From Brachypterus glaber (lineage: Eukaryota; Arthropoda; Insecta; Coleoptera; Kateretidae): 64,000 bases of DNA. Numbering within the stretch: the stretch's first letter is position 1; each line of letters begins with the position of its first letter. The translations under genes were made by a program, and so were the position numbers. Below the pieces are notes generated by a model. The model was not told where the DNA came from, did no database searches, and saw nothing but the letters and a program-made list of their open reading frames with translations. The stretch lies in contig OY294044.1 of assembly GCA_958510825.1 (NCBI GenBank), forward strand, positions 79,964,895-80,028,894, read 5' to 3'. Positions 12,296-59,590 of this stretch are shown piece by piece.

Positions 12296-12705
12296 TTATT
12301 GTAAAATCCTGTCCGAATTTTTCTCCATGTATTCGCAGCAGTTAGCTGCCTCCGGGTAGTCACAGACCTGTATGTTATTATTAAAAAGTAAATTCGCAGG
12401 GCATTTCATATGAAAGGAACCCGAAGGTCCAGTTAGAATAAATGTACGACAATTTTCCTCATTTTCCCTTACATCCTGAATAGTTTGGTTTGGCCTACTT
12501 TCAAGTCCTTCATAAAATTGACACGTCATAATTTCGCCATTAAAAAAAGAGCCACGAGGGCACTGTATTATTTCCGAAGAATCGGGAAAAATTCGCAGGA
12601 AAGCATCTTTTCCAGTTTTGTAAACCTCTTGAATAGGTAATACTGGATTTGTGTCTAATGATGATATTATGTAAGATCTGGAGCACGAGATGTAGCAGGA
12701 GAATA
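12296..12705 (-). CDS. Terminal exon of a peritrophin-A (CBM14) chitin-binding protein
   Basis: In one frame from the minus-strand splice acceptor (pyrimidine tract at 12708-12720, AG at 12706-12707) about 136 codons run to a stop at 12296-12298. The first part holds the end of a chitin-binding domain (CPRGSFFNGEIMTCQF). The second domain (ENCRTF, then KCPANLLFNNNIQVCDYP, then ANCCEY) has the CBM14 pattern of spaced cysteines, LFN and CDYP. Such proteins bind chitin extracellularly in gut peritrophic matrix or cuticle. An AATAAA overlaps the stop, a likely polyadenylation signal. No upstream exon is visible. An ATG at 12738-12740 opens a hydrophobic, signal-peptide-like MKFHITITILFSILLL, but in another frame, so either a frameshift has broken a single-exon gene or that overlap is fortuitous. 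Confidence 0.7.
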
Positions 12706-13071
12706 CTAAAAAGAATTGTAATTGTTATATGAAATTTCACCTCAAATAAAATTTATTTCCGTTTTTTTATTACACTCAGAAAATTTCTTGTATTTTTAAT
12801 ACTGAATGTTATTTGTTAATACATATTTTGCTTTCCCATTTTTAAGATTTTCTACTTTTGACACGCTGTGTATAATGAAATGCGTTAAGTATCTTCACGG
12901 CTTGTTTTCTTAATGCATTTACATAGTATGCATAAAATACATTTTTTCGTATTTTGTCTCTTTTATTTTATTTAGGACTGGTAGTCCAGTCAAATAACGA
13001 AAAATGCATGTAATGAAAAACTATGATTCTTTGTATATCGGTATAATTGTAATAAATAAAAAAGATCAGCC

Positions 13072-19304: not shown

Positions 19305-19882
19305 CACAGCCACAAAAAAAGAAAAAAAGTCCGGATTTTTTTCCCACTGTATTTCTATGTATTTTGAGGTGCTTAATCCGAATTTGAGGTCAAAATAGCA
19401 CCTTATCAGATTAGTTTTGAAGATAGCATCGAAAAACTTTCCCTAAATTTACTAGAAAATAACGTTTATTGAGGTTATTTCCAAAACTAATCGGATGAGG
19501 TGCTATTTTGACCTCAAATTTGGATTCAGCGCCTCTAAATACATATAAATACATTGGTCTCCGAAAAAAATCTTGACTTTTTTTTGTGTGAATACGTGTG
19601 TGGCCACAAAACGAAAAAAAAGGTTGTACCATTGTATTCATAGTATTTTGAGGCACTGAATCCGAATTTGAGGTCAAAATAGCACCTCATCCGATTAGTT
19701 TTGGAGATAATCTCAAAAAACGTTATTTACATACTCGAAAATAAGTTTTTTTAAGGTTATCTCCAAAACTAATCGGATAAGATGCTATTTTGACCTCAAA
19801 TTCGGATTCGGCGCCTTAAAATACATAGGAATACAATGGTCTCCTAAAAATTCCTGACCTTTTTTCTTTTTGTGTGGCTGTG
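19305..19882. mobile_element. Double CACAGCCACA MITE
   Basis: Ends CACAGCCACA and GTGTGGCTGTG, TTA on both sides (19302-19304 and 19883-19885). Two palindromic units lie head to tail with a degenerate junction near 19592 (GTGTGTGGCCACA). Each contains TTGAGGTCAAAATAGCACC and its complement. Two elements may share outer ends, or one inserted next to another. Confidence 0.8.
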
Positions 19883-22259: not shown

Positions 22260-22905
22260 TTCGAAATTCAGCTCTTAAGGGGGTGAAACGGGCGTTGAAA
22301 GGTTTTTTTTAAAAGTGTGCGTAACTCAGAGCCCTCTTAATCTAGAATCTTAATTTTTGGCAAAAATGTTTTCTATCGAAATCGAAAAGATACGTGTTTC
22401 AGTATTTTTCGATATTTTACCCCTAAGGTGGTAAAAATCGTCATATTTAAGTCCAAAGTGGTAAATTATGTAAATTATGTATATATTTTTTGAAAAGTGT
22501 GCGTATCTCAAAGATCTCTTAATCTAGAATCTTTATATTTGGTAAAAATGTTTTTTATCGAAATATATGTGTTTCAGGAATTTTAGATATTCGACCCTTT
22601 AGCGGTAAAACGGGTGTTGAAAGGTTTTTAAAAAGTGTGCTTATCTCAGAGACCTCTTAATGTAGAATCTTCATATTTGGCAAAAATCGAAAAAACACGT
22701 GTTTCAGAAAATTTCGACCTCTAAGGGATGAAACGAAGGCTGAAAGGTTTTTTAAAAAGTGTGCGTATCTCAGAGACCTCTTAATCTAGAATCTTCATAT
22801 TTGGCAAAAATGTTGTTTATCGAAATCGAAAAAATACAGGTTTCAGGATTTTTCGATATTCGATCCCTAAAGGTGTAAAAATTGTGTTGTTTTGGTTTTA
22901 AGGGG
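22260..22905 (+). repeat. Degenerate tandem repeat, four units of 120-180 bp
   Basis: GTGTGCGTATCTCAGAGACC-like starts occur near 22316, 22497, 22636 and 22760, each followed by CTTAATCTAGAATCTT, a GGCAAAAATGTT block and a TTTCGATATT block. Confidence 0.75.
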
Positions 22906-23795: not shown

Positions 23796-23863
23796 TATTA
23801 TTATTATTATTTAAAGAACTTTCACTTTCGGGTTTAGACCGTGTTAATGGATTTTCACTTTCC

Positions 23864-23898
23864 GACGTTTCGTCTCTTACTACTAGAGACATCTTCAG
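23864..23898 (-). ncRNA. Compact hammerhead-like motif in PLE 3' end
   Basis: Antisense-arm copy of the motif described at 58264-58298, apparently unchanged. Confidence 0.5.
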
Positions 23899-24297
23899 GG
23901 ATTAATCTGAAACTAAGTTTCGAATCAAATTGTGTCACTATTTATGACGAGTTGTGGTTATTCACCCGTGACGAGGTTTTTCCTATCAAAGACTTCCATA
24001 TTGCAGGTAAGTGGTAACCAGTGTCCCGATTGATATTGTTAGGATGCTTGATGATTTCTATCGATTCCCGTATCTTCCTTGGCATTTTTCTGTTTTCTGT
24101 TCACTTTCGGGTTTAGACCGTGTTAATGGAATCGATAGAAATCATCAAGCATCCTAACAATATCAATCGGGACACTGGTTACCACTTACCTGCAATATGG
24201 AAGTCTTTGATAGGAAAAACCTCGTCACGGGTGAATAACCACAACTCGTCATAAATAGTGACACAAGTTGATTCGAAACTTAGTTTCAGATTAATCC

Positions 24298-24332
24298 CTG
24301 AAGATGTCTCTAGTAGTAAGAGACGAAACGTC
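24298..24332 (+). ncRNA. Compact hammerhead-like motif in PLE 3' end
   Basis: Sense-arm copy, identical in sequence to 58264-58298. Confidence 0.5.
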
Positions 24333-24416
24333 GGAAAGTGAAAATCCATTAACACGGTCTAAACCCGAAAGTGAAAGTTCTTTATATCTTAATGGCCGTG
24401 AAAGCTTAAAATCTAA

Positions 24417-25140
24417 AATTATTATTATTATTATTATTATTATATGAAAGTTGAGCTAAAAATTGTTTCCAGACCACCGTGAGCAGAATAACAAGGTAAA
24501 ATAAAAGTTTACATATTTGTTTTAAACTCACATCCTTAAGCGTAATTCTTATTTTATTTTATTAAAATATTATAAGTTCTTTTTTCTTGATTGTAAATCT
24601 TATATTGATTTTACGGAAATATTATTTTTAAAAAGAATAAAGTTTCTTTAAGATTTATTTGCCTTTAATATTACCATTTTATCCACGTATATCTACAAAG
24701 CTTTTAAGGTATTGTTATTTTCAATATTTTTCCGAGTATTTTTCATAAAAATTTAATGACCAATTACAGTCTTGTCTATAATACGAAACAGTTTTAATAG
24801 TTTTTTGTGTACCCAGAGCGCAATTATACATAATTTCCGTCTAGTAGTAGAAATTACTGTTCGAGGCGGAGCGCCGAGAACAGCAACTGAATAAGGAAAT
24901 TATACTTTGCGGTCGAAATGCGCACACTATTTCTTCTACGGCTCACAAAATTTAAATTATAAAAAATTATTTTAATTTATTTGCGGTAGGTAATTTTTTT
25001 TTTGATAAAATAAAAATACCTACATATTTTAATAAAAAAAAAGAAATAAAAAATTACACTGACAATTACAGTTAACATTTTTAACATTGATAATTAAGAA
25101 TTATTTGATAAAATTTAATTAAAAACCTTATTTTTAGTAC
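24417..25140. other. ATT microsatellite, then AT-rich DNA
   Basis: An (ATT)n tract of about 27 bases at 24417-24443. A short inverted pair (AGAAATTACTG, GCGGAGCGCC) near 24850-24880. No gene seen. Confidence 0.4.
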
Positions 25141-27325: not shown

Positions 27326-28459
27326 CAGGGTGTCTGAAAAAGCAGGTCAAATCTAACAAATTTAATATAGCCATAACTCATTTTTTTTAAATGGCACCCT
27401 ACATTTTTTTTTATTTGGTTAAATAGAGAATTAAATTTGCTTTAAAATAAGTATAGGATACCCTATACCTAACTTTAACCGTTTTTGAGCTATTTGCAAA
27501 TTATTGTGAAAAAGCCGTATTTCTGTTAAAATTTGTTATATTTTATAAAATAGGCCAGAAAAATTAATCGATTTTTATTTATTTACCTCAAAGATCATTA
27601 TATTTACCTTAAAACTGGATTTTCATGCGCCCAGAGGTGTACATTTCTTCTGTTAAAAATACCCTGTTGAGAAAATTTAGCCTCGTCCGTCCAAATTATT
27701 CTTTTTAAAAAGTTTTGTTTTTCTTGAATATTTATCAAAAGATTTTCACAAAAGTCCACTCTATTTTGAAAATCATTAGGTTTTAAGGCCTGTATTTTTT
27801 GCTTTTTGTAATCGTGCATCTTGTGGTTTTTTAAAATTCTTTGGATGCTTGAATAGGAAATTCCCAAATCGTAACTAGCTGCAGGAATTGAGGCATGTGG
27901 ATATGCATAAAAGTAACCCAAAACATTGACTTCGTTATCTTCGTTGTTTGTAATTGGTTTCGTAAGAGATTTCACTGCATTTTCTTTTCCAAATTGCGAA
28001 AAATTTTTGTGTATTCTTCTAAATTTTTTACATGACATTCTTGGTAAATCAGGATATTTTGTATTAAAGTTTCTGCAGGTTCTACTAATTATTTTATCAT
28101 TTTCACCAAAAATAGAAAATAAATCCAAAATAACAGGGTAAGAATAAGCCTCTGCCATTATTTTACACTAATTTATCACGATAAGAACGATAACATTTAG
28201 GTTAAAAGAAATAAAAACACAATACAATTTTAAAAATTTACGTAATTGCAGAAATACTGCAAAATACTTCTTTTTCACATTAATTTGCAAATAGCTCGAA
28301 AACGGTTAAAGTTAGGTATAGGATATCCTATACTTATTTTAAAGAAAATTGAATTCTCTATTTAAACAAATAAAAAAAAATGTAGGGTGTCATTTAAAAA
28401 AAAAAGAGTTATGGCTATTTTAATTTTGTTAAGTTTGACCTGCTTTTTCAGACACCCTG
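27326..28459. mobile_element. Inner element with CAGGGTGTCTG ends and transposase
   Basis: TIRs of about 200 bp including GAGTTATGGCTAT and the complement, TA at 27324-27325 and 28460-28461. It is centred exactly within the outer palindrome 26902-28883. It may be the original transposon, with the outer arms belonging to a larger derivative, or it may have inserted at a palindrome centre. The flanking AACCCAAAAATTA/TAAATTTTGGATT are themselves complementary. Confidence 0.75.
27604..28158 (-). pseudogene. N-terminal half of a DDE transposase (Tc1/mariner-like)
   Basis: 184 codons from ATG at 28156-28158 to TAA at 27604-27606. Residues about 10-55 look like a first helix-turn-helix (SRTCRNFNTKYPDLP, FRRIHKNF), 87-113 like a second (PHASIPAASYDLGISYSSI). 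IIWTDEAKF at 154-162 contains the first catalytic aspartate (D158), followed by FNRRN and HEN. The second Asp and final Asp/Glu of the DDE fold, roughly 150 residues in this family, are missing. The frame ends in AAG-GTAAAT, which would fit a splice donor, but only the inverted repeat follows. It could still supply a DNA-binding domain without catalysis. Confidence 0.8.
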
Positions 28460-38791: not shown

Positions 38792-39376
38792 GAAGAAGAA
38801 GAAGAAGAAGAAGAAGAAGAAGAAGAAGAAGAAGAAGAAGAAGAAGAAGAAGAAGAAGAAGAAGAAGAAGAAGAAGAAGAAGAAGAAGAAGAAGAAGAAG
38901 AAGAAGAAGAAGAAGAAGAAGAAGAAGAAGAAGAAGAAGAAGAAGAAGAAGAAGAAGAAGAAGAAGAAGAAGAAGAAGAAGAAGAAGAAGAAGAAGAAGA
39001 AGAAGAAGAAGAAGAAGAAGAAGAAGAAGAAGAAGAAGAAGAAGAAGAAGAAGAAGAAGAAGAAGAAGAAGAAGAAGAAGAAGAAGAAGAAGAAGAAGAA
39101 GAAGAAGAAGAAGAAGAAGAAGAAGAAGAAGAAGAAGAAGAAGAAGAAGAAGAAGAAGAAGAAGAAGAAGAAGAAGAAGAAGAAGAAGAAGAAGAAGAAG
39201 AAGAAGAAGAAGAAGAAGAAGAAGAAGAAGAAGAAGAAGAAGAAGAAGAAGAAGAAGAAGAAGAAGAAGAAGAAGAAGAAGAAGAAGAAGAAGAAGAAGA
39301 AGAAGAAGAAGAAGAAGAAGAAGAAGAAGAAGAAGAAGAAGAAGAAGAAGAAGAAGAAGAAGAAGAAGAAGAAGAA
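38792..39376 (+). repeat. Uninterrupted (GAA)n microsatellite, 195 units
   Basis: 585 bases of pure GAA, with no interruption seen in the assembly. All long open frames across it (polyGlu, polyLys, polyLeu, polyPhe) are artefacts of the repeat. Homopurine-homopyrimidine mirror repeats of this length can form triplex DNA. Confidence 0.98.
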
Positions 39377-40477: not shown

Positions 40478-41127
40478 CTCTAGTGCGGTATAGTATATTC
40501 TATAACTAGTATGGAATAGACAATATTCCGCGCGAGCCGGCAGGCGAGTATGACGGTCCCGCGAGCACGGAATGACTATTCCATACTTGTTGTAGACTAT
40601 ACTTTTTCTTCGACTGCAAATATGAAACACTGTATGACTATAAACTGCGGACAAGGTTAAAAACAATGTTTTTTGTCACTCGACATTGTAAATGCAACAA
40701 AACACATATTTTTAAATAAAGCAATTAATGATATTTAATAATTTAATCAAATCAGTACTTAAAAAAGATTTTTATTTAATTTTAGCACATTTTTACAAAT
40801 TATAATGCAAACATTGAAGGTTATGTCAGATTGTTGTGACAGATATCAGGTTTAAATATTTAACAATAGATGGAGCAGTTTTAATTTTTTGAACTAAATT
40901 GAAAAAAAACTGGTCAAATATTAAGAAAAACTTTATGTAATTCTAACGCAAAACTTAAAATTGCATTAAATTATTCAATATTTCATGGTAAAATATATAT
41001 ATTTTTGCTAATTTTGCTACAGTTTTCTTTACTTTTATAAACAAGAGATGACACTACATGCACTTGATACGAAATATTCATACCGTATCTATAGATACAT
41101 TCTAAAGCAGTCGTAGAAAAAAGCCTT
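40478..41127 (-). repeat. Solitary inverted copy of the 713-bp repeat
   Basis: Matches the 713-bp array units at 52375-55106 on the opposite strand, from the TATGGAATAGACAATATTCC block to CATTCTAAAGCAGTCGTAG. It is more diverged than array units are from each other. Ends directly beside the pseudogene at 41165-42147. Confidence 0.8.
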
Positions 41128-47480: not shown

Positions 47481-47711
47481 ACACTGAGGGCTCGGTACCG
47501 TAATAAATACTAAACTTTTTTTGCTTATATGGAACCCCACGAAACTTTACTTAACATTCACTGGTTGTTACAGTAATAGTTAACGTTTATTATTCCATCC
47601 TGCACGCTGATTAAGAAAACGTTTTTAGACTTTACTCGCAAAAGGAATATAGCCATTAGATTGATGTAGACTTGTGCGCCATCTATTTCTAGATGTAGAC
47701 AACTACTCTGT

Positions 47712-49777
47712 ACCGTAATTAATACGTTCACTGCCAACGGCTAGTTTTGACAGCGGAGCAATGGGTATGGGCAAGGGAAAAATAGAAAGAATTGATTAAT
47801 GTTGTTAGGGGCGCCAGTTACTTTAGCTTTTACTCCTTTAGGTAAGTAACAACCTAGTGTAAATACTTAAGCTTTTCAATTTGAGAAAATATAACCCCTA
47901 AATAAAATAAGATAATTCATTTGAGAAATTTATTATAAATAAACTTAATGAAAGCACATCAAGTAATGTATTAATATATCTAAAAAAATATGTGTAATTA
48001 TATTAAGATATAATTAAAGAAATCTTAATAAAAATTACTAAATTCTGAAATCATTCGACTTAAATGTATAAAGAAAACATGAAGTTCAGCAAGCACCAAG
48101 AAATGTATGTAAACAGCAATCATTTCTTGCAGTGTATAAAAGTCATGCTTAAATTAGAAATCATTTAATCAAAAGTATGATATTTAATAATTAATAAATG
48201 AGATTAAATGTTTTAAAAAAATAAGTACCTAAAAATGAACAAAAGCCAGAAGGGCATATAGTATTAATCAATACTATATCAGATCTGATAAAGTTTACAG
48301 TTATAAGAATATTGAAATAAAAGAATTTTAAATATGAAATATTGCTTTCAAAAGTTTTCAGAATGAGTACTTAGCTGGTTTCTGCAAAATCCATGAGGTA
48401 TGAATTCCATCGTCTCCATCTGTACAAGTCTCCCCTATGCTGATGAATTCATTTCTCAAATGAAAGAAAAAAAAATATAGGCTGTCCCATCTACTTTGGA
48501 AAAATCATCTTCCAGGATAAAATGTACGATTGAAAATGTTGTCCGGGATAAAATATGCTTTTGAAAATTATGTCCAATGTAAAATTGTCTGCTAGACGGT
48601 TACATAGAATTTATCTATGCCGAAAATTACAGAACCATGTTCCAACAGAACATCACTCCATGCGGAGAACTTGTATATCAAATATACCAAAATAAACTTC
48701 AACTTAAATTAATGTAATTCCATATTAATGGTATAGAAATGGTGAGTAATTAATGGTAATTAATTAATGGTGCTAAAACAATAATTATATCTCAGAAATA
48801 TTCTAAGAAACAGAAAAACGTAACTTACATGTCATACTAAGTCTTCGATGTCCATCGAAACGTTATAAATGCGTAATTGTAGAAAATAACCGTTACAATA
48901 TCTTCCGCATTTTTTAAATATTCATTTTCACTAACTTTAAATAAAAATACATGAAGGATTACTTCGATGATTACAGAAAATAAACACTCGTCAAAATGAC
49001 ACCACCATTGTACAGAGTTGCTTCAAGAAGGAGGAAAATCGACCTTATCAACCGGTATGAACCCTTCAGGTAAATAAAATACTATTTCTGAACTATTAGC
49101 GACATCTATGCAAGTCATTATCAACTACAGTTTTACCGTATAGGATTCCTAATAAAGGTAACGAAAACGACACCAAAAATAATAACAAAAGAATATTTCC
49201 TAATAAATCCGTATTAGTGATATCTAACCTCAAAATATTACTCTAAGAAACAAATATAAACAATACTTATTGTTTATCAGCAAAACTAATAAAAATACGA
49301 ACAGAATACTAAGTGTCCTGTGAACTAAGTATAAACAAAATACTGAATCTAAGTGAGCAGTTCCAGCAAACTATTTTCAACAAATTCTGGATTATCCCGA
49401 AGGAATAAGCATACGAAACTTTCCAGGAGAAACAAGCTACAGATGAAAGCCAGTGAAATCCAACCCTCAATAGACTCTGAAACATATAAAAACCAGGTAA
49501 GTCCATAGACAAATGTATTATAGAGAAATAAGTCATATGATTCTTTATTATTAAAAATCATATTCTAATTATGTTTTCTTTATGTTATTTTCAGGTAGAA
49601 CTATGGAATAGAGACTCATATGGTTAGAATTCAGTTCCTGCTACAAAATAGTCCCAGATACAAAATAGTTCTGTACGTACGTAACTATTTATATACAAAA
49701 TAAACATAAATTATAACGTAAGTAAACGAATAGTTTAATTAACCCTTGCTATATTACAAAGTGACGATTTATATCGT
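47712..49777. other. Interior of the TIR element, no gene recognised
   Basis: AT-rich. The minus-strand frames at 49309-49561 overlap each other, have no domain and are probably chance. The junctions ACAACTACTC (left) and ACAACTCATACC (right) suggest this block interrupts an array that was once continuous. Confidence 0.45.
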
Positions 49778-49976
49778 TACAACTCATACCTCTCCTTATC
49801 TGGAGACTTTGAATGGTAGCAAGTTGAAGACTTGTGTGTCTCAAGCACATAGTACCACTAACGGGTGGTTAGACGTAAAATTAGTAAGGACAGAAATTTT
49901 TAATTTTAAACAAAATTATAAAAATATTAATTTATTATTCCATCAATCTATTTTCTAATCATCGTACAGAGTGATA

Positions 49977-50021
49977 TTGGTAGACTGACAGTTTCGGGCT
50001 GCTGGCCCTCTTCAGTACCAA
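49977..50021 (-). ncRNA. Type I hammerhead ribozyme, array unit 1
   Basis: Minus strand, 5' to 3': stem I TTGGTA, core CTGAAGA, stem II GGGC-CAGCA-GCCC, core GAAA, stem III CTGTCAG closing as A-U, C-G, U-A around a 3-base loop, then UC and stem I TACCAA. Predicted cleavage after the C of GUC, between 49983 and 49982. All invariant core positions (CUGANGA, GAAA, UH) are present and stem I and stem II pair perfectly. Confidence 0.8.
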
Positions 50022-50330
50022 GAGTCAACTCTGCACGCTGATTAAGAAAACGTTTTTAGACTTTACTCGCAAAAGGAATATAGCCATTAGATTGATGTAG
50101 ACTTGTGCGCCATCTATTTCTAGATGTAGACAACTACTCATACCTCTCCTTATCTGGAGACTTTGAATGGTAGCAAGTTGAAGACTTGTGTGTCTCAAGC
50201 ACATAGTACCACTAACGGGTGGTTAGACGTAAAATTAGTAAGGACAGAAATTTTTAATTTTAAACAAAATTATAAAAATATTAATTTATTATTCCATCAA
50301 TCTATTTTCTAATCATCGTACAGAGTGATA

Positions 50331-50375
50331 TTGGTAGACTGACAGTTTCGGGCTGCTGGCCCTCTTCAGTACCAA
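50331..50375 (-). ncRNA. Type I hammerhead ribozyme, array unit 2
   Basis: Same sequence and fold as unit 1, exactly 354 bp away. Confidence 0.8.
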
Positions 50376-50684
50376 GAGTCAACTCTGCACGCTGATTAAG
50401 AAAACGTTTTTAGACTTTACTCGCAAAAGGAATATAGCCATTAGATTGATGTAGACTTGTGCGCCATCTATTTCTAGATGTAGACAACTACTCATACCTC
50501 TCCTTATCTGGAGACTTTGAATGGTAGCAAGTTGAAGACTTGTGTGTCTCAAGCACATAGTACCACTAACGGGTGGTTAGACGTAAAATTAGTAAGGACA
50601 GAAATTTTTAATTTTAAACAAAATTATAAAAATATTAATTTATTATTCCATCAATCTATTTTCTAATCATCGTACAGAGTGATA

Positions 50685-50729
50685 TTGGTAGACTGACAGT
50701 TTCGGGCTGCTGGCCCTCTTCAGTACCAA
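50685..50729 (-). ncRNA. Type I hammerhead ribozyme, array unit 3
   Basis: Same sequence and fold as unit 1. Confidence 0.8.
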
Positions 50730-51038
50730 GAGTCAACTCTGCACGCTGATTAAGAAAACGTTTTTAGACTTTACTCGCAAAAGGAATATAGCCATTAGAT
50801 TGATGTAGACTTGTGCGCCATCTATTTCTAGATGTAGACAACTACTCATACCTCTCCTTATCTGGAGACTTTGAATGGTAGCAAGTTGAAGACTTGTGTG
50901 TCTCAAGCACATAGTACCACTAACGGGTGGTTAGACGTAGAATTAGTAATGACAGAAATTTTTAATTTTAAACAAAATTATAAAAATATTAATTTATTAT
51001 TCCATCAATCTATTTTCTAATCATCGTACATAGTGATA

Positions 51039-51083
51039 TTGGTAGACTGACAGTTTCGGGCTGATGACCCTCTTCAGTACCAA
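51039..51083 (-). ncRNA. Type I hammerhead ribozyme, array unit 4 (variant stem II)
   Basis: Stem II reads GGGT-CATCA-GCCC, which keeps three G-C pairs plus a U-G wobble. The core and stem I are unchanged, so selection or chance has preserved pairing. Confidence 0.75.
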
Positions 51084-51529
51084 GAGTCAACTCTGCACGC
51101 TGATTAAGAAAACGTTTTTAGACTTTACTCGCAAAAGGAATATAGCCATTAGATTGATGTAGACTTGTGCGCCATCTATTTCTAGATGTATACAACTACT
51201 CATACCTCTCCTATTCTGGAGACTTTGAATGGTAGCAAGTTGAAGACTTGTGTGTTTCAAGCACATAGTACCACTAACGGGTGGTTAGACGTAGAATTAG
51301 TAACGACAGAAATTTTTAATTTTAAACAAAATTATAAAAATATTAATTTATTATTCCATCAATCTATTTTCTAATCATCGTACAGAGTGATATTGGTAGA
51401 CTAACAGTTTCAGTACCAAGAGTTTTAATAACCCGTGAATGTCCAAACTAAACTTTCGTGGGGTTCCATATAAGCAAAAACGTTTAGTATTTACTACGGT
51501 AACGAGCTCTCAGTGTACTGTACTGACAA

Positions 51530-51761
51530 TTAAAGGTTTTCTAAATTAGAACTAAACCTATGATTTTCATGTTTAAGGCCACGCTTCACATGCTATCCTT
51601 TTATAGATTCTTTGTTAGGTATATATTTTCTAAAGTTTTCAATACTTTAACAACAATGCTCGTATTTCTAATTTGTGTATTTTTAACAGAACTGAAAAAT
51701 AAAAGAACTCTAAATAAAACCCACCGAAGTATTAATTCTCACCAAAAGATTCCCTTGCAAC
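51530..51761. other. AT-rich spacer between the TIR element and the palindromic copy
   Basis: The 71-codon frame at 51560-51775 is hydrophobic at its start but has no recognisable family; not supported as a gene. Confidence 0.3.
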
Positions 51762-51864
51762 ACCTAAAGGAATAAGGACAGAAATTTTTAATTTTGAACA
51801 AAACTATAAACATATTAATTTATTATTCCATCAATCTATTTTCTAATCATCGTACAGAGTGATA

Positions 51865-51909
51865 TTGGTAGACTGATAGTTTCGGGTTGCTGGCCCTCTT
51901 TAGTACCAA
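51865..51909 (-). ncRNA. Hammerhead with mutated core (CTAAAGA)
   Basis: Same layout as the array copies, but the invariant G of CUGANGA is A, and stem II has GGGC against ACCC. Predicted inactive. Confidence 0.65.
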
Positions 51910-52057
51910 GTGTCAACTCTGCACGCTGATTAAGAAAACCTTCTATTGTCTACATCTAGCAATAGATGCTGCACAAGTCTACATCAATCTAATGACTATA
52001 TTCCTTTAGCGAATAAAGTCTTAAAAGGTTTTCTTAATCAGCGTGCAAAGTTGACTC

Positions 52058-52102
52058 TTGGTACTGAAGAGGGCCAGCAGCCCGAAACTGTCAGTCTACC
52101 AA
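52058..52102 (+). ncRNA. Type I hammerhead ribozyme, palindromic copy
   Basis: TTGGTA, CTGAAGA, GGGC-CAGCA-GCCC, GAAACTGTCAGTC, TACCAA: identical to array unit 1 but on the plus strand. Confidence 0.75.
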
Positions 52103-52374
52103 TATCACTCTGTACGATGATTAGAAAATAGATTGATGTAATAATAAACCTAGAGGAATATTTCACCACACTAAATATAATATTTTTTATCCCTAGCCAA
52201 TCCTCTCATTACCCTTAACACTCTACTTGCATAAAATTAAAAATAATTATTTTTAATTATAGTCAAAAGCCCAGTCCATCCTAAGAAGAAAGACAACACT
52301 GTTTCTTGCCCTGATTGCAGTCATATGTTTTTTAACTAATTTTGGGTCGCTGAGAGCCTCAGAATGTTTTTTTT

Positions 52375-55106
52375 CTACGACTGCTTTAGAATGTAATCAA
52401 ATACACACACTTTTCAAACACAGAATGAATCCATTCTAGCTCTAGATACGGTATGAATATTCCGTATCAAGTGTTAGAATGAGCACATGTAGTGCCATCT
52501 CTTGTTTATAAAAGTAAAGAAAACTGTAGCAAAATTAGCAAAAATATATTTATTTTACCATGAAATATTGAATAATTTAATGCAATTTAAAGTTTTGAGT
52601 TAAAATTACATAAAGTTGATTGGTTAGTCTTAATATTTCACCAGTTTTTTATGAATTTAGTTCAAAAAATTAAAACTGCTCCATCTATTATTAAATATTT
52701 AAACCCGATATCTGTCACAACAATCTGACATAATCATCAATTTTTATATTAAATAAAAATCTTTTTTAAGTACTGATTTGGTAAAATTATTAAATAACAT
52801 TAATTGATTTATTTAAAAATATGTGTTTTGTTGCATTTACAATGTCGTGTCAGAAAAAAACTTTATTTTCAACCTTGTCCGCAGTTTAAAGCCATACAGT
52901 GGTTCATATTTGCAGTCGAAGAAAAAGTATAGTCTACAACACGTATGTAATAGTCATTCCGCGCTCGCGGGACCGTCATACTCGCCTGCCGGCTCGTATG
53001 ACAAACTTTCCACTCGCGTGGAATATTGTCTATTCCATACTAGTTATAGAATATACTATTTTCTACGACTGCTTTAGAATGTAAGCCAATACACACACTT
53101 TTCAAATACAGAATGAATCCATTCTAGCTCTAGATACGGTATGAATATTCCGTATCAAGTGTTAGAATGAGCACATGTAGTGCCATCTCTTGTTTATAAA
53201 AGTAAAGAAAACTGTAGCAAAATCAGCAAAATATATTTATTTTACCATGAAATATTGAATAATTTAATGCAATTTAAAGTTTTGTGTTAAAATTACATAC
53301 AAGTTTATTAGTTTTTCTTAATATTTGACCAGTTTTTTATCAATTTAGTTCAAAAAATTAAAACTTCATCTCCATCTATTAAATATTTAAACCTGATATC
53401 TGTCACAACAATCTGACATAACCTTCCATTTTTGCATTATAATTTGTAAATATGTGTTAAAATTAAATAAAAATCTTTTTTAAGTACTGATTTGATAAAA
53501 TTATTAAATAACATTAATTGCTTTAATTAAAAATATGTGTTTTATAGAATTTACAATGTCGAGTCACAAATAACACTGTTTTTAACCTTGTCCGCAGTTT
53601 ATAGCCAAACAGTGTTTCATATTTGCAGTGGAAGAAAAAGTATAGTCTACAACACGTATGGAATAGTCATTCCGCTCAAGCGGCACCGTCATACTCGCCT
53701 ACCGGCTCGTATGACAAACTTTCCGCTCGCGTGGAATATTGTCTATTCCATACTAGTCATAGAATATACTATTTTCTACGACTGCTTTAGAATGTAAGCC
53801 AATACACACACTTTTCAAACACAGAATATATCCATTCTAGCTCTAGATACGGTATGAATATTCCGTATCAAGTGTTAGAATGAGCACATGTAGTGCCATC
53901 TCTTGTTTATAAAAGTAAAGAAAACTGTAGCAAAATCAGCAAAATATATTTATTTTACCATGAAATATTGAATAATTTAATGCAATTTAAAGTTTTGTGT
54001 TAAAATTACATACAAGTTTATTAGTTTTTCTTAATATTTGACCAGTTTTTTATCAATTTAGTTCAAAAAATTAAAACTTCATCTCCATCTATTAAATATT
54101 TAAACCTGATATCTGTCACAACAATCTGACATAACCTTCCATTTTTGCATTATAATTTGTAAATATGTGTTAAAATTAAATAAAAATCTTTTTTAAGTAC
54201 TGATTTGATAAAATTATTAAATAACATTAATTGCTTTAATTAAAAATATGTGTTTTATAGAATTTACAATGTCGAGTCACAAAAAACACTGTTTTTAACC
54301 TTGTCCGCAGTTTATAGCCAAACAGTGTTTCATATTTGCAGTGGAAGAAAAAGTATAGTCTACAACACGTATGGAATAGTCATTCCGCTCAAGCGGCACC
54401 GTCATACTCGCCTACCGGCTCGTATGACAAACTTTCCGCTCGCGTGGAATATTGTCTATTCCATACTAGTCATAGAATATACTATTTTCTACGACTGCTT
54501 TAGAATGTAAGCCAATATACACACTTTTCAAACACAGAATGAATCCATTCTAGCTCTAGATACGGTATGAATATTCCGTATCAAGTGTTAGAATGATCAC
54601 ATGTAGTGCCATCTCTTGTTTATAAAAGTAAAGAAAACTGTAGCAAAATCAGCAAAATATATTTATTTTACCATGAAATATTGAATAATTTAATGCAATT
54701 TAAAGTTTTGTGTTAAAATTACATACAAGTTTATTAGTTTTTCTTAATATTTGACCAGTTTTTTATCAATTTAGTTCAAAAAATTAAAACTTCATCTCCA
54801 TCTATTAAATATTTAAACCTGATATCTGTCACAACAATCTGACATAACCTTCCATTTTTGCATTATACTTTGTAAATATGTGTTAAAATTAAATAAAAAT
54901 CTTTTTTAAGTACTGATTTGATAAAATTATTAAATAACATTAATTGCTTTAATTAAAAATATGTGTTTTATAGAATTTACAATGTCGAGTCACAAAAAAC
55001 ACTGTTTTTAACCTTGTCCGCAGTTTATAGCCATACAGTGTTTCATATATGCAGTGGAAGAAAAAGTATAGTCTACAACACGTATGGAATAGTCATTCCG
55101 CGCTCG
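52375..55106 (+). repeat. 713-bp tandem array, ~3.8 units
   Basis: CTACGACTGCTTTAGAATGTA starts at 52375, 53063, 53776 and 54489, giving spacings of 688, 713 and 713. Units two to four are nearly identical; the first is more diverged. The last stops inside GTCATTCCGCGCTCGG. Each unit has a GC-richer imperfect palindrome (TATGGAATAGTCATTCCGC against GCGTGGAATATTGTCTATTCCATA). An 86-codon frame recurs intact in two units but is unlikely to be coding. A solitary inverted unit is at 40478-41127. Confidence 0.9.
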
Positions 55107-57018: not shown

Positions 57019-57218
57019 NNNNNNNNNNNNNNNNNNNNNNNNNNNNNNNNNNNNNNNNNNNNNNNNNNNNNNNNNNNNNNNNNNNNNNNNNNNNNNNNNN
57101 NNNNNNNNNNNNNNNNNNNNNNNNNNNNNNNNNNNNNNNNNNNNNNNNNNNNNNNNNNNNNNNNNNNNNNNNNNNNNNNNNNNNNNNNNNNNNNNNNNNN
57201 NNNNNNNNNNNNNNNNNN
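57019..57218. other. Scaffold gap of 200 N
   Basis: Placeholder of the same length as gap 1. It lies immediately upstream of an inverted segment of the PLE. Confidence 0.97.
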
Positions 57219-57280
57219 TGAAATCATGAAAGCCCTATGAACAAGTGAATTAACTACCGAGCGTTTTTGAGAGGGATGTG
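57219..57280 (-). repeat. Inverted PLE segment at the 5' truncation point
   Basis: Reverse complement of about 57508-57575 in the PLE coding region. The junction with sense PLE is at GATGTGATAGACGATG, just before the reverse-transcriptase DD. It looks like a 5' inversion with local duplication of the kind made by twin priming, though a palindromic misassembly beside the gap is possible. Confidence 0.75.
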
Positions 57281-58222
57281 ATGTGATAGACGATGTCTAT
57301 GCTATTTGGCCCCATGGCATGGAAAGCCTTCAAGGTTTTCTAAATCACCTCAATTCCCAACATAAATCTATACGGTTTACGATGGAAATTGAGAACAACG
57401 GATCACTTCCCTTTTTGGACGTTTTGGTTTACAAAACGGAAAATGGCTCAATAGGACACTCGGTATACAGGAAGAAAACCCACACTGACAGATACACCTA
57501 AACGCATTTTCACATCACCATCCCTCTCAAAAACGCTCGGTAGTTAATTCACTTGTTCATAGGGCTTTCATGATTTCAGACAAGAATTCCCTAGACACAG
57601 AACTCCTTAAACTAACCAAAGCCTTGACCATGAACGGTTACACCAAAAAAGACATTAATAAGACCATATACAAATACAGAAATCCCAGACCCAAACAACA
57701 GGACAATAGTGACAATGACAGACAGACACAAGTTATACTTCCCTATGTAAGCGGTATCACGGATAAAATAGGTAAACTTTTGAAGAAGTCAAATATTAAG
57801 CCTATATTTCGGTCCAACCAAAAATTAGGTCAATGTTTGACTTCAACAAAAGACAAAATACCCCTGAGTTCAGAAGGCGTATATAAAATACCCTGCTCCT
57901 GTGGTACGGTTTACATAGGTGAAACTAAGAGAAAAATTTCTACAAGACTTCAAGAGCATGAGCGCAATATAAGAAAGAAACAAATTTCCTTATCGGCAGT
58001 AGCCGAACATGTACATGAAACAGGTCATAAAATCAATTTGTCTGAAACAAAACAAATATTAACAGAAAACAGAAAAATGCCAAGGAAGATACGGGAATCG
58101 ATAGAAATCATCAAGCATCCTAACAATATCAATCGGGACACTGGTTACCACTTACCTGCAATATGGAAGTCTTTGATAGGAAAAACCTCGTCACGGGTGA
58201 ATAACCACAACTCGTCATAAAT
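57281..58222 (+). pseudogene. Penelope-like element: RT end plus GIY-YIG endonuclease
   Basis: The first block keeps the catalytic DD and beyond (DDVYAIWPHG, LPFLDVLVYK, YRKKTHTDRY). A 2-base AC insertion near 57497 shifts the frame and gives a stop. The second block (57570-58222, 216 codons) holds the C-terminal linker and GIY-YIG nuclease: GVYKI at residues 103-107, CSC 109-111, YIGET 115-119, R126, EH 129-130, SAVAEH 142-147, TGH 151-153, E176. RT followed by GIY-YIG is the defining architecture of EN-carrying PLEs. Most of the RT is missing 5'. The nuclease half is intact. Confidence 0.9.
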
Positions 58223-58352
58223 AGTGACACAAGTTGATTCGAAACTTAGTTTCAGATTAATCCCTGAAGATGTCTCTAGTAGTAAGAGACGAAACGTCGG
58301 AAAGTGAAAATCCATTAACACGGTCTAAACCCGAAAGTGAAAGTTCTTTATA
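58223..58352 (+). mobile_element. PLE 3' untranslated end
   Basis: Nearly identical to the two arms of 23812-24385, ending GAAAGTTCTTTATA. Contains the hammerhead-like motif. The downstream flank is reverse-transcriptase coding sequence of another element, marking the insertion site. Confidence 0.85.
58264..58298 (+). ncRNA. Compact hammerhead-like motif in PLE 3' end
   Basis: CTGAAGA, one extra T, perfect 6-bp stem II GTCTCT/AGAGAC with a 7-base loop, then GAAACGTC. Stem I is short (TCC/GGA). ACGT in the stem III position is self-complementary, allowing pairing only between two RNAs. PLEs are known to carry hammerheads, including small variants reported to cleave as dimers; the extra base before stem II departs from the classical core. 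Confidence 0.55.
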
Positions 58353-59590
58353 CCATAAAACACTGTTTTAATAATTGTGAACTCTTACTCTATGCGAATG
58401 ATTCAAAGATTTCTCTCTGAGTATTACAATACACTGATAGAATAATAACGTTATCAATACAACAACATATTGTATAAAGGCGTCTTTTCACGGAGCAATT
58501 TGTACGCAAGTTTGGTGCTGTGCAAGTTTGCTGCCAGATATAGCATGAGAACAATTCTACATTCATTTGCCTTTTCATGGAGCAAGTTGTACGCAAGTTT
58601 GACGCTATATATTGTTAAAGTTAAACAGCGCTGCCTTTTTCCAGGTTGGTACCACGAAAATAACTATAAATCTTGCGTGAAAATCGTCTAAAAATAGAAC
58701 TTGTTCTATAATTTGATGGCTGGAAAATAGCATCAAAGTTGCATAGCACCAAACTTGCGTACAAATTGCTCCGTGAGCAATTGTTGTATTTATAACAATT
58801 GTATGTTGTTTACCTCTTAATTCTACAACTGGTTGTTGTATTGTATAACATATTTATGCTATGGCATATTAAAAAATCAGTTGTTTTTGAATATTGACAA
58901 ATGTTCTGTAATATCGTTTTCGCGTGGCTCCTTCATCATCTATTGGTATAAACTGGATAGGGAGTCCTCTTCGACTCTAAGCTCATGTTTCATCTAGATA
59001 TTGACAAATTGGTCAATGAGTGTAATAAAACTGTAGGATCTATACAAAGGTCTAATGTACCTATTTTCAAAATTCCAAAGCACTAAATACATTGTATTAT
59101 TCTTTGGTTTTTACTTCGCCTCAATCATCTCTAATATAAGATACAAAAATAATACTGATAGATAAGAAAATATATAAAATAAGTTTATAAAATTTCTAAC
59201 GTTATAATTTATAAAACACGCCTCAATTATCTGGAATCCGAGATAGAAAAATAATACTGATACAATTCCAAAGCACTAATTACATTGCATTATTCTTTGG
59301 TTTTTAGTTCGTCTCAATCATCTCTAATATGAGATACAAAAATAATACTGATAGATTAGAAAAGATACAAAATAAATTCATAAAATTTCTTATATTATAA
59401 AACACAATATGCTATCGCGTAATATTATACTGCAGCCCGTTCTCACTTTAAAAGTTAGAAAAAAAGAACTTTATGTAATATATTGGAGTTGTTTAAGATA
59501 TTAAATAATATATCTAGTTCACTTTTAATTCTCTCTTAAATTTTTAACATACCGTTTAGAAAGCTTAGCAATCAAAATTTTTCGCGTTCC
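58353..59590 (+). pseudogene. Non-LTR reverse transcriptase C-terminal region, interrupted by a MITE
   Basis: 58355-58420 encodes KHCFNNCELLLYANDSKI, where YAND replaces the catalytic YADD. After the MITE 58484-58790 the frame resumes with LNIDKCSVISFSRGSFI (near 58890), GVLFDSKLMFHLDIDKLV and NECNKTVGSIQRS. 59266-59410 encodes TDRLEKIQNKFIKFL, and near 59485 ELFKILNNISSSL follows. This order (YADD, LN..KC..ISFSR, DLGVLFDSKL, LE.IQNKF..FL, L..LFKILN) is the jockey/RTE-like ORF2 tail as I know it. A segment of about 170 bp (59093-59262) is duplicated as 59266-59410. Many breaks. Confidence 0.75.
58484..58785. mobile_element. MITE with CACGGAGCAATTTGTACGC ends
   Basis: TTTTCACGGAGCAATTTGTACG at the left and CAAATTGCTCCGTG at the right, with an internal AAGTTGTACGCAAGTTTG copy. 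It splits the RT pseudogene. Same family as 61018-61539. Confidence 0.75.

Follow-up and report, generated by a model that had tools for sequence, protein, structure and literature searches.

A tandem array of 354-bp units at 49778-51424, each full unit of which carries a hammerhead ribozyme (HHR) motif, raises the question of what kind of element this repeat represents and which enzymes move it. The array lies in a window of 64,000 bp from the beetle Brachypterus glaber (contig OY294044.1), and positions refer to this window. It represents a single, damaged member of a family dispersed through the genome, a newly described element belonging to the animal non-LTR retrozymes. We consider it highly probable that the array is a non-autonomous retrozyme copy bearing a predicted HHR and likely mobilised by the reverse transcriptase (RT) and endonuclease of a Penelope-like element (PLE) resident in the same genome. 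The PLE is identified as the likely mobiliser because dispersed sister insertions of the retrozyme show its paired-end signature.

The first-pass annotation of the window had placed a 354-bp tandem array at 49778..51424, and this is borne out by four full units and one partial unit. TRF reports the 354-bp period over 49782-51411 with 4.6 copies, 99% matches, and 0% indels. Units 1 to 3 are identical, while unit 4 and the partial unit 5 (214 bp) show 98.3% and 97.2% identity to unit 1, respectively. The 354-bp unit has a GC content of 35.9%, and its longest stop-free run, determined on the tandem unit, is 65 codons. These tandem, non-coding, low-GC units fall in the range of ~150 to 450 bp, as in animal non-LTR retrozymes. 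Since no open reading frame (ORF) exceeds 65 codons and the unit therefore encodes no RT and GIY-YIG endonuclease, the retrozyme is not itself a PLE. A 109-bp piece of the unit at 47600-47708 is likely the continuation of the array, split off by the stretch 47709-49777. The features of the array are as follows:

47600..47708, minus strand: 109-bp unit piece, nearly in phase with the array
49778..51424, minus strand: retrozyme tandem array of 354-bp units (four full, one partial), both native ends lost
49977..50021, minus strand: type I HHR motif of unit 1 (descriptor), predicted cut between 49983 and 49982
50331..50375, minus strand: HHR motif of unit 2 (descriptor scan)
50685..50729, minus strand: HHR motif of unit 3 (descriptor scan)
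51039..51083, minus strand: HHR motif of unit 4 with stem II GGGU/GCCC (descriptor scan)
51393..51419, minus strand: HHR of the partial unit, disrupted by the loss of stem II (from the sequence)

The stretch 47709-49777, 2069 bp long, occurs only once in the window and seems to split the retrozyme array.

The minus-strand motif is a 45-mer, UUGGUA-CUGAAGA-GGGC-CAGCA-GCCC-GAA-ACU-GUC-AGU-C-UACCAA, with the predicted cut before UACCAA. An intact hammerhead had been claimed for every full unit, and the descriptor scan confirms a complete type I core on the minus strand, with every core base and three stems, in 4/4 full units. Stem II comprises 4 bp closed by a 5-nt loop and is followed by GAA, and GUC is found at the cut site of the full units. 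The stems described in that annotation have to be modified in part. Stem II, given as GGGC/GCCC for the first four units, has this form in units 1 to 3, whereas unit 4 shows GGGU/GCCC with a G-U pair. The 6 bp given for stem I are its inner pairs; the stem is longer, with an internal loop and then 8 outer pairs. This outer stem I architecture is the general plan of the canonical animal type I HHR. The short stem III is found as 3 bp with a 3-nt loop but has a pair probability of 0.0 in the Turner model, which favours an ACUGA/UCAGU pairing instead. The internal loop in stem I and the 5-nt loop II, between which a loop 1-loop 2 tertiary contact may form, are both present. Across the window, the descriptor finds five HHR motifs, four in the array and one at 52058-52102 on the plus strand, compared to none in each of five mononucleotide shuffles.

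Covariance models give less. The strong match every 354 bp that had been proposed as a check does not appear at the gathering threshold, the best score being 21.3 of 56.3 bits. Rfam returns no family at the gathering threshold for the whole window and no hammerhead family at E values up to 10 for 49600-52200. On a 121-bp piece, the model RAGATH-1-hammerhead scores 21.3 bits (E 0.091, gathering 56.3) in the right register and Hammerhead_HH10 13.6 bits in a different register. The stem III strands of two copies can pair mutually with one mismatch (-8.3 kcal/mol), so that a dimeric ribozyme is possible. A weak stem III is also described for amphibian HHRs, which work better as dimers (PMC7229834). 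Folding predictions for the 354-nt circle show a high degree of self-pairing, with a minimum free energy of -93.3 compared to -65.9 ± 5.7 for shuffled sequences (z -4.8; 0/100 shuffles as low). Self-cleavage of the transcript into 354-nt units is plausible as a prediction. A comparison of the HHR stretch with viral contigs gave no exact matches.

The array had been assigned to the HHR-bearing tandem repeats of the satellite or retrozyme kind; the HHR core and the tandem units show this class to be right, whereas the one local array seen at that time is part of a dispersed family. The strongest evidence comes from how insertions of this family are built at places other than 49778-51424. The 39-nt HHR core occurs 5572 times with at most 3 mismatches in the 648-Mb assembly, with none for the reversed control, and a search with the unit dimer gave 185 matches from the 39 scored of 381 candidate places. 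A total of 49 loci were examined: 38 multi-unit loci from the best-scoring dimer matches, 10 loci on a single contig (C1) that were the first-listed exact HHR matches, and the insertion at 51773-52148 of the window, neither locus set being a random sample. They contain 192 HHR motifs, 10 of the loci having been picked for an exact HHR. The direct matches sum to 2.6 to 14.2 units per locus in the 38 multi-unit loci. Among 136 full units of 39 loci, 37 units from 21 loci share an identical haplotype. Two units differ on average by 2.44 if taken from one locus and by 3.22 if taken from different loci, and 1 in 2000 permutations of the labels gave a within-locus mean as low. As in animal non-LTR retrozymes, most of the dispersed copies scored carry target-site duplications. 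The largest array examined, L017 (G000:C4:69218100-69227500), has ~14 units, among which the master type takes turns with a type carrying 99A and 196T and one carrying 160G.

The typical locus, representing most of the 49, consists of a direct array with a short inverted arm joined head to head at the 5' side of the array. The outer ends fall at two sites of the unit, counted from the predicted HHR cut: 39/44 ends of class A at +50 to +61 and 40/42 ends of class B at +97 to +107, with class ranges of 36-73 (A) and 90-112 (B) that were fixed after inspecting the data. Both ends are classed at 38/49 loci, and at 37 of these they are opposite (20 B/A and 17 A/B), with one A/A locus (L049) and no B/B locus, an excess of opposite ends with a two-sided binomial probability of 2.8e-10. 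At the 11 unclassed loci (L023, L027, L028, L029, L030, L037, L038, L045, L046, L047, and L052), the inverted arm was not found or an end lies beyond both ranges. A second fragment at L024 and another at L037 were left out of the scoring. A simpler earlier script yielded opposite ends in 27/27 cases, with 12/39 loci unclassed. The inner joint and the number of units differ from locus to locus. Because the array at 49778-51424 is without native ends, the window was scored only for the separate small insertion at 51773-52148:

51773..51942, minus strand: small retrozyme insertion distinct from the array, direct arm reaching site B (+98) at its outer end
51946..52148, plus strand: inverted arm of this small insertion, reaching site A (+52) at its outer end and containing an intact HHR motif at 52058-52102

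A match to MIR2599 at 51900-52068 (42.2 of 120 bits) is the palindromic joint of this small insertion and was rejected as a microRNA.

Target-site duplications accompany these ends. At 31/38 loci, the sequences at the two edges repeat each other exactly and in direct orientation over 10 bp or more, and at 30/38 over 12 bp or more (12 to 17), compared to 4/652 and 0/652 for mismatched pairs from different loci of the same class. Eight unit letters per side enter this test in loci and controls alike; the repeats may include a few of them, and the true duplication is therefore somewhat shorter. The first version of the test, with flanks free of unit letters, found repeats of at least 8 bp in 7/32 cases compared to 2.9% of 992 controls and is weaker because some of the duplicated positions are at the same time unit letters. 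The 22-bp flanks contain 74 to 80% A+T, compared to 69.5% for the window.

Arm ends within 3 nt of the HHR cut were called by script in 2/38 direct and 6/32 inverted arms. One of the direct cases (L042) and four of the inverted ones (L012, L031, L040, and L046) overlap the self-complementary stem I, two inverted cases (L011 and L016) are an artefact of query splitting, and the direct arm of L017 stands. As only L017 stands, there is no clear pile-up of arm ends at the cut of the kind that run-off on cleaved RNA would produce. At L012, L031, L040, L042, and L046, the direct and inverted matches overlap such that the joint of the arms lies within stem I of the HHR, which may help in joining the two cDNAs.

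The resident PLE is represented in the window by the following features:

23803..24419, plus strand: short PLE insertion with both ends resolved, minimal HHR from 24298
57219..58358, plus strand: 5'-truncated PLE copy with the direct arm at 57287-58358 and an inverted bit at 57219-57286 beside the N gap 57019-57218, minimal HHR from 58264
57489..58220, plus strand: open frame, C-terminal part of this PLE copy, with a GIY-YIG-like motif recognised by eye

Pfam gives no match for the frame 57489-58220. A genome search with this frame led to 5138 candidate places, of which 150 were scored, almost all with 100% identity over 229 amino acids. Among the copies listed, at least seven have an open frame of at least 800 codons. 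The tandem copy L061 shows a period of 2506 bp and a frame of 821 amino acids with an RVT_1 domain (E 3.1e-9). GIY-YIG is not called by Pfam in its protein and was assigned by eye. Among the 120 protein relatives listed, many of the named ones are from insects, with 39 to 53% identity; one is an Anolis carolinensis protein with 47% identity over 94%, and the relative P0044 (47% identical) carries PF01541, which we take to be GIY-YIG. The PLE has a minimal HHR-like motif at the start of its ORF, with the cut 26 nt after the ATG. On L061, where the HHR cut of the PLE lies at 1150, PLE insertions end mostly at 1204-1211 or 1236-1242, at ~+55 and ~+87 from that cut. Fifteen PLE copies were examined, namely a set of 14 (one of them being 57219-58358 of the window) and 23803-24419. 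Five have both ends resolved (L058, L063, L066, L070, and 23803-24419), and all five pair the two sites; at 23803-24419, the inverted arm 23803-24101 ends at PLE site A and the direct arm 24128-24419 at site B. L067 fits this pairing but runs into the edge of its stretch. The other nine are without an inverted arm or without an end in the stretch, L065 ending at 1195.

Two internal end sites and an inverted arm, which fit priming on both target strands, are hence common to 37/38 retrozyme loci and 5/5 resolved copies of a PLE that retains an intact frame in the same genome. The ends of the retrozyme insertions thus repeat the PLE pattern with comparable offsets from the HHR, even though the two elements lack common sequence. 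A search for homology between the two yields only short AT-rich chance matches (best E 0.11), and a comparison of the regions near the start sites shows no apparent shared fold. The spacing between A and B is 40 to 50 nt in the retrozyme compared to ~32 nt in the PLE, a spacing of 30 to 40 nt being expected from the PLE "tail". For the movement of animal retrozymes, this means that the insertion ends give a readable signature that is common to the resident PLE.

Studies of the PLE Poseidon PAc from Anolis (PMC11167929) describe the closest experimental counterpart. In vitro, this PLE acts on both strands of the target, cleaving and extending them, and initiates reverse transcription inside the RNA at two sites, mainly 111 to 118 nt into the ORF, and its targets are AT rich like those of the retrozyme. 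Its HHR is located where the ORF begins, and its cut lies 26 nt downstream of the start codon, as in the resident PLE; by arithmetic on the published figures, the main starts on the Anolis RNA lie at ~+82 to +92 after the cut. The retrozyme, by comparison, lacks an ORF, spaces its two sites more widely, and has a more complete HHR that includes stem III and 8 outer pairs in stem I. The strict A/B pairing described here goes beyond that assay, since no strand preference for the start site is reported for it. The Anolis enzyme also inserts RNA with a mutated HHR in vitro, and reads ending at the cut site were not detected; by analogy, cleavage may not be needed for insertion of the retrozyme.

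Animal non-LTR retrozymes as described in PMC7229834 share with the present element the type I HHR, tandem units of a few hundred base pairs, low GC, the non-coding character, copies from dimers to multimers, self-paired RNA, and the presence of PLEs in the same genomes. Cleavage and circular RNAs were shown in that work and are predicted here, whereas the signature of the insertion ends is supplied here. Cervera and de la Pena (2020, PMC7229834) name PLEs as strong candidate mobilisers of animal retrozymes, and retrozyme repeats are described as having no conserved motif that identifies the mobilising element in a review (PMC7761336). Searches of literature that leaves subscription journals mostly outside found neither A/B pairing in retrozymes nor a match of retrozymes to PLEs by their ends. 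Penelope elements of rotifers (PMC3846280) resemble the insertions in their inverted pLTRs joined head to head, palindromes at the inverted junction, a 31-bp "tail" that one of these pLTRs may carry, and 8- to 10-bp duplications in several copies. The asymmetry of the ends is therefore already visible in PLEs from this "tail". In contrast to the retrozyme, some rotifer copies are without duplications or inverted pLTRs, and the authors favour self-priming on an antisense template, whereas the retrozyme data fit two target-primed starts. HHR-bearing tandem repeats of ~300 to 500 bp are further known from newts, schistosomes, and Dolichopoda cave crickets (in part from PMC8490949), those of newts with a short stem III as in the retrozyme. 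They are usually described as satellites, whereas the loci examined here are single dispersed insertions with defined ends.

A cycle that accommodates these data would begin with transcripts of the HHR strand being cut into 354-nt units and circularised. The PLE enzyme would then introduce nicks ~10 to 15 bp apart on the two strands of an AT-rich target, in keeping with the observed duplications. From each nicked end, a separate cDNA may be primed at an internal position of the retrozyme RNA, A for one and B for the other, leaving the observed paired ends. One cDNA would round the presumably circular template several times to give the direct array, the other staying short and giving the inverted arm, which matches the anatomy of the loci. 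Finally, the cDNAs would be linked head to head; the position of this joint varies and at several loci falls within the self-complementary stem I. An extended proposal, which we hold with about even confidence, is that the retrozymes are parasites of the PLE that copy its RNA address, consisting of the hammerhead, site A at ~+50 to +60, and site B at ~+90 to +100. The PLE would act as a coupled enzyme pair on one (circular) RNA, using A once and B once with one site per target strand; the insertion would be born as two cDNAs joined head to head, and the hammerhead would also mark the docking module. The one-A-one-B pattern constrains PLE insertion itself, as it points to two coupled starts on opposite strands.

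The state of the template separates this cycle from its closest rival, in which the PLE mobilises the repeat from linear, uncleaved multimeric transcripts and cleavage and circles play no part in copying. The direct arms of 49/49 loci continue past the HHR cut. Since a cleaved linear unit would allow just 50 to 100 nt of cDNA from A or B before its 5' end, this leaves a circle or an uncleaved multimer as the template. The insertion of HHR-mutant RNA by the Anolis PLE in vitro (PMC11167929) suits the linear multimer, as do some arrays whose units differ in blocks, as a copied source array would, and the unit-order test for circular multimers, which is null for 11 arrays (adjacent sharing p 0.74, alternating p 0.27). 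Alternating unit patterns in L016, L044, and L017 were dismissed as evidence for circles given this null result. In favour of one circular unit, 4/4 variants present throughout a direct array are also carried by its inverted arm, three of them representing one common allele (11T), compared to 0/8 for partly shared variants. Moreover, retrozyme circular RNAs of similar size are abundant in the three animals tested in PMC7229834, and by this analogy the circle would be favoured over the linear multimer, which we regard as a possible but rather unlikely template.

Mobilisation by other means fits the insertions far less well. The attraction of a LINE acting via twin priming is that this process also gives inversions with duplications. 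LINE cDNA normally starts at the 3' end of the RNA, however, whereas the two arms here originate at fixed internal positions as in the resident PLE, and this route is very unlikely. Slightly less credible again is a DNA transposon of foldback or TIR type, or a Helitron, that carries tandem repeats in its interior. Such an element would account for the inverted ends and the target duplications, but the outer ends represent two different points of the unit, A plus B, rather than equal inverted termini, the variable joint and unit number speak against it, and the resident PLE has the same design. An ordinary satellite spread by unequal exchange, with a fossil hammerhead, would explain tandem arrays with partly shared variants and the smaller differences within loci than between them. 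Insertions that are single and dispersed, end at fixed sites, have inverted arms, and are flanked by target duplications contradict it, as does the one haplotype found in 37 units of 21 loci, and this explanation is the least probable of those considered.

Apart from the retrozyme and the PLE, the window contains several other features. The frame 12296-12724 encodes a chitin-binding peritrophin-A domain (CBM_14, E 1.9e-8), for which a word search did not find a homologue, and the frame 27604-28167 shows a sub-threshold match to the helix-turn-helix of Tc3-type transposases (24.7 of 31.5 bits). Tandem arrays at 19344-19865 and 22486-22826 have periods of 282 and 124 bp, respectively. A perfect (GAA)195 run of 585 bp at 38792-39376 (100%) stands out by its length and purity and is possibly an effect of assembly or sequencing. 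A further tandem repeat at ~52371-55106 has a period of ~690 to 713 bp, beyond the 500-bp limit of TRF, and an inverted partial copy of it lies 11 kb away at 40490-41097.
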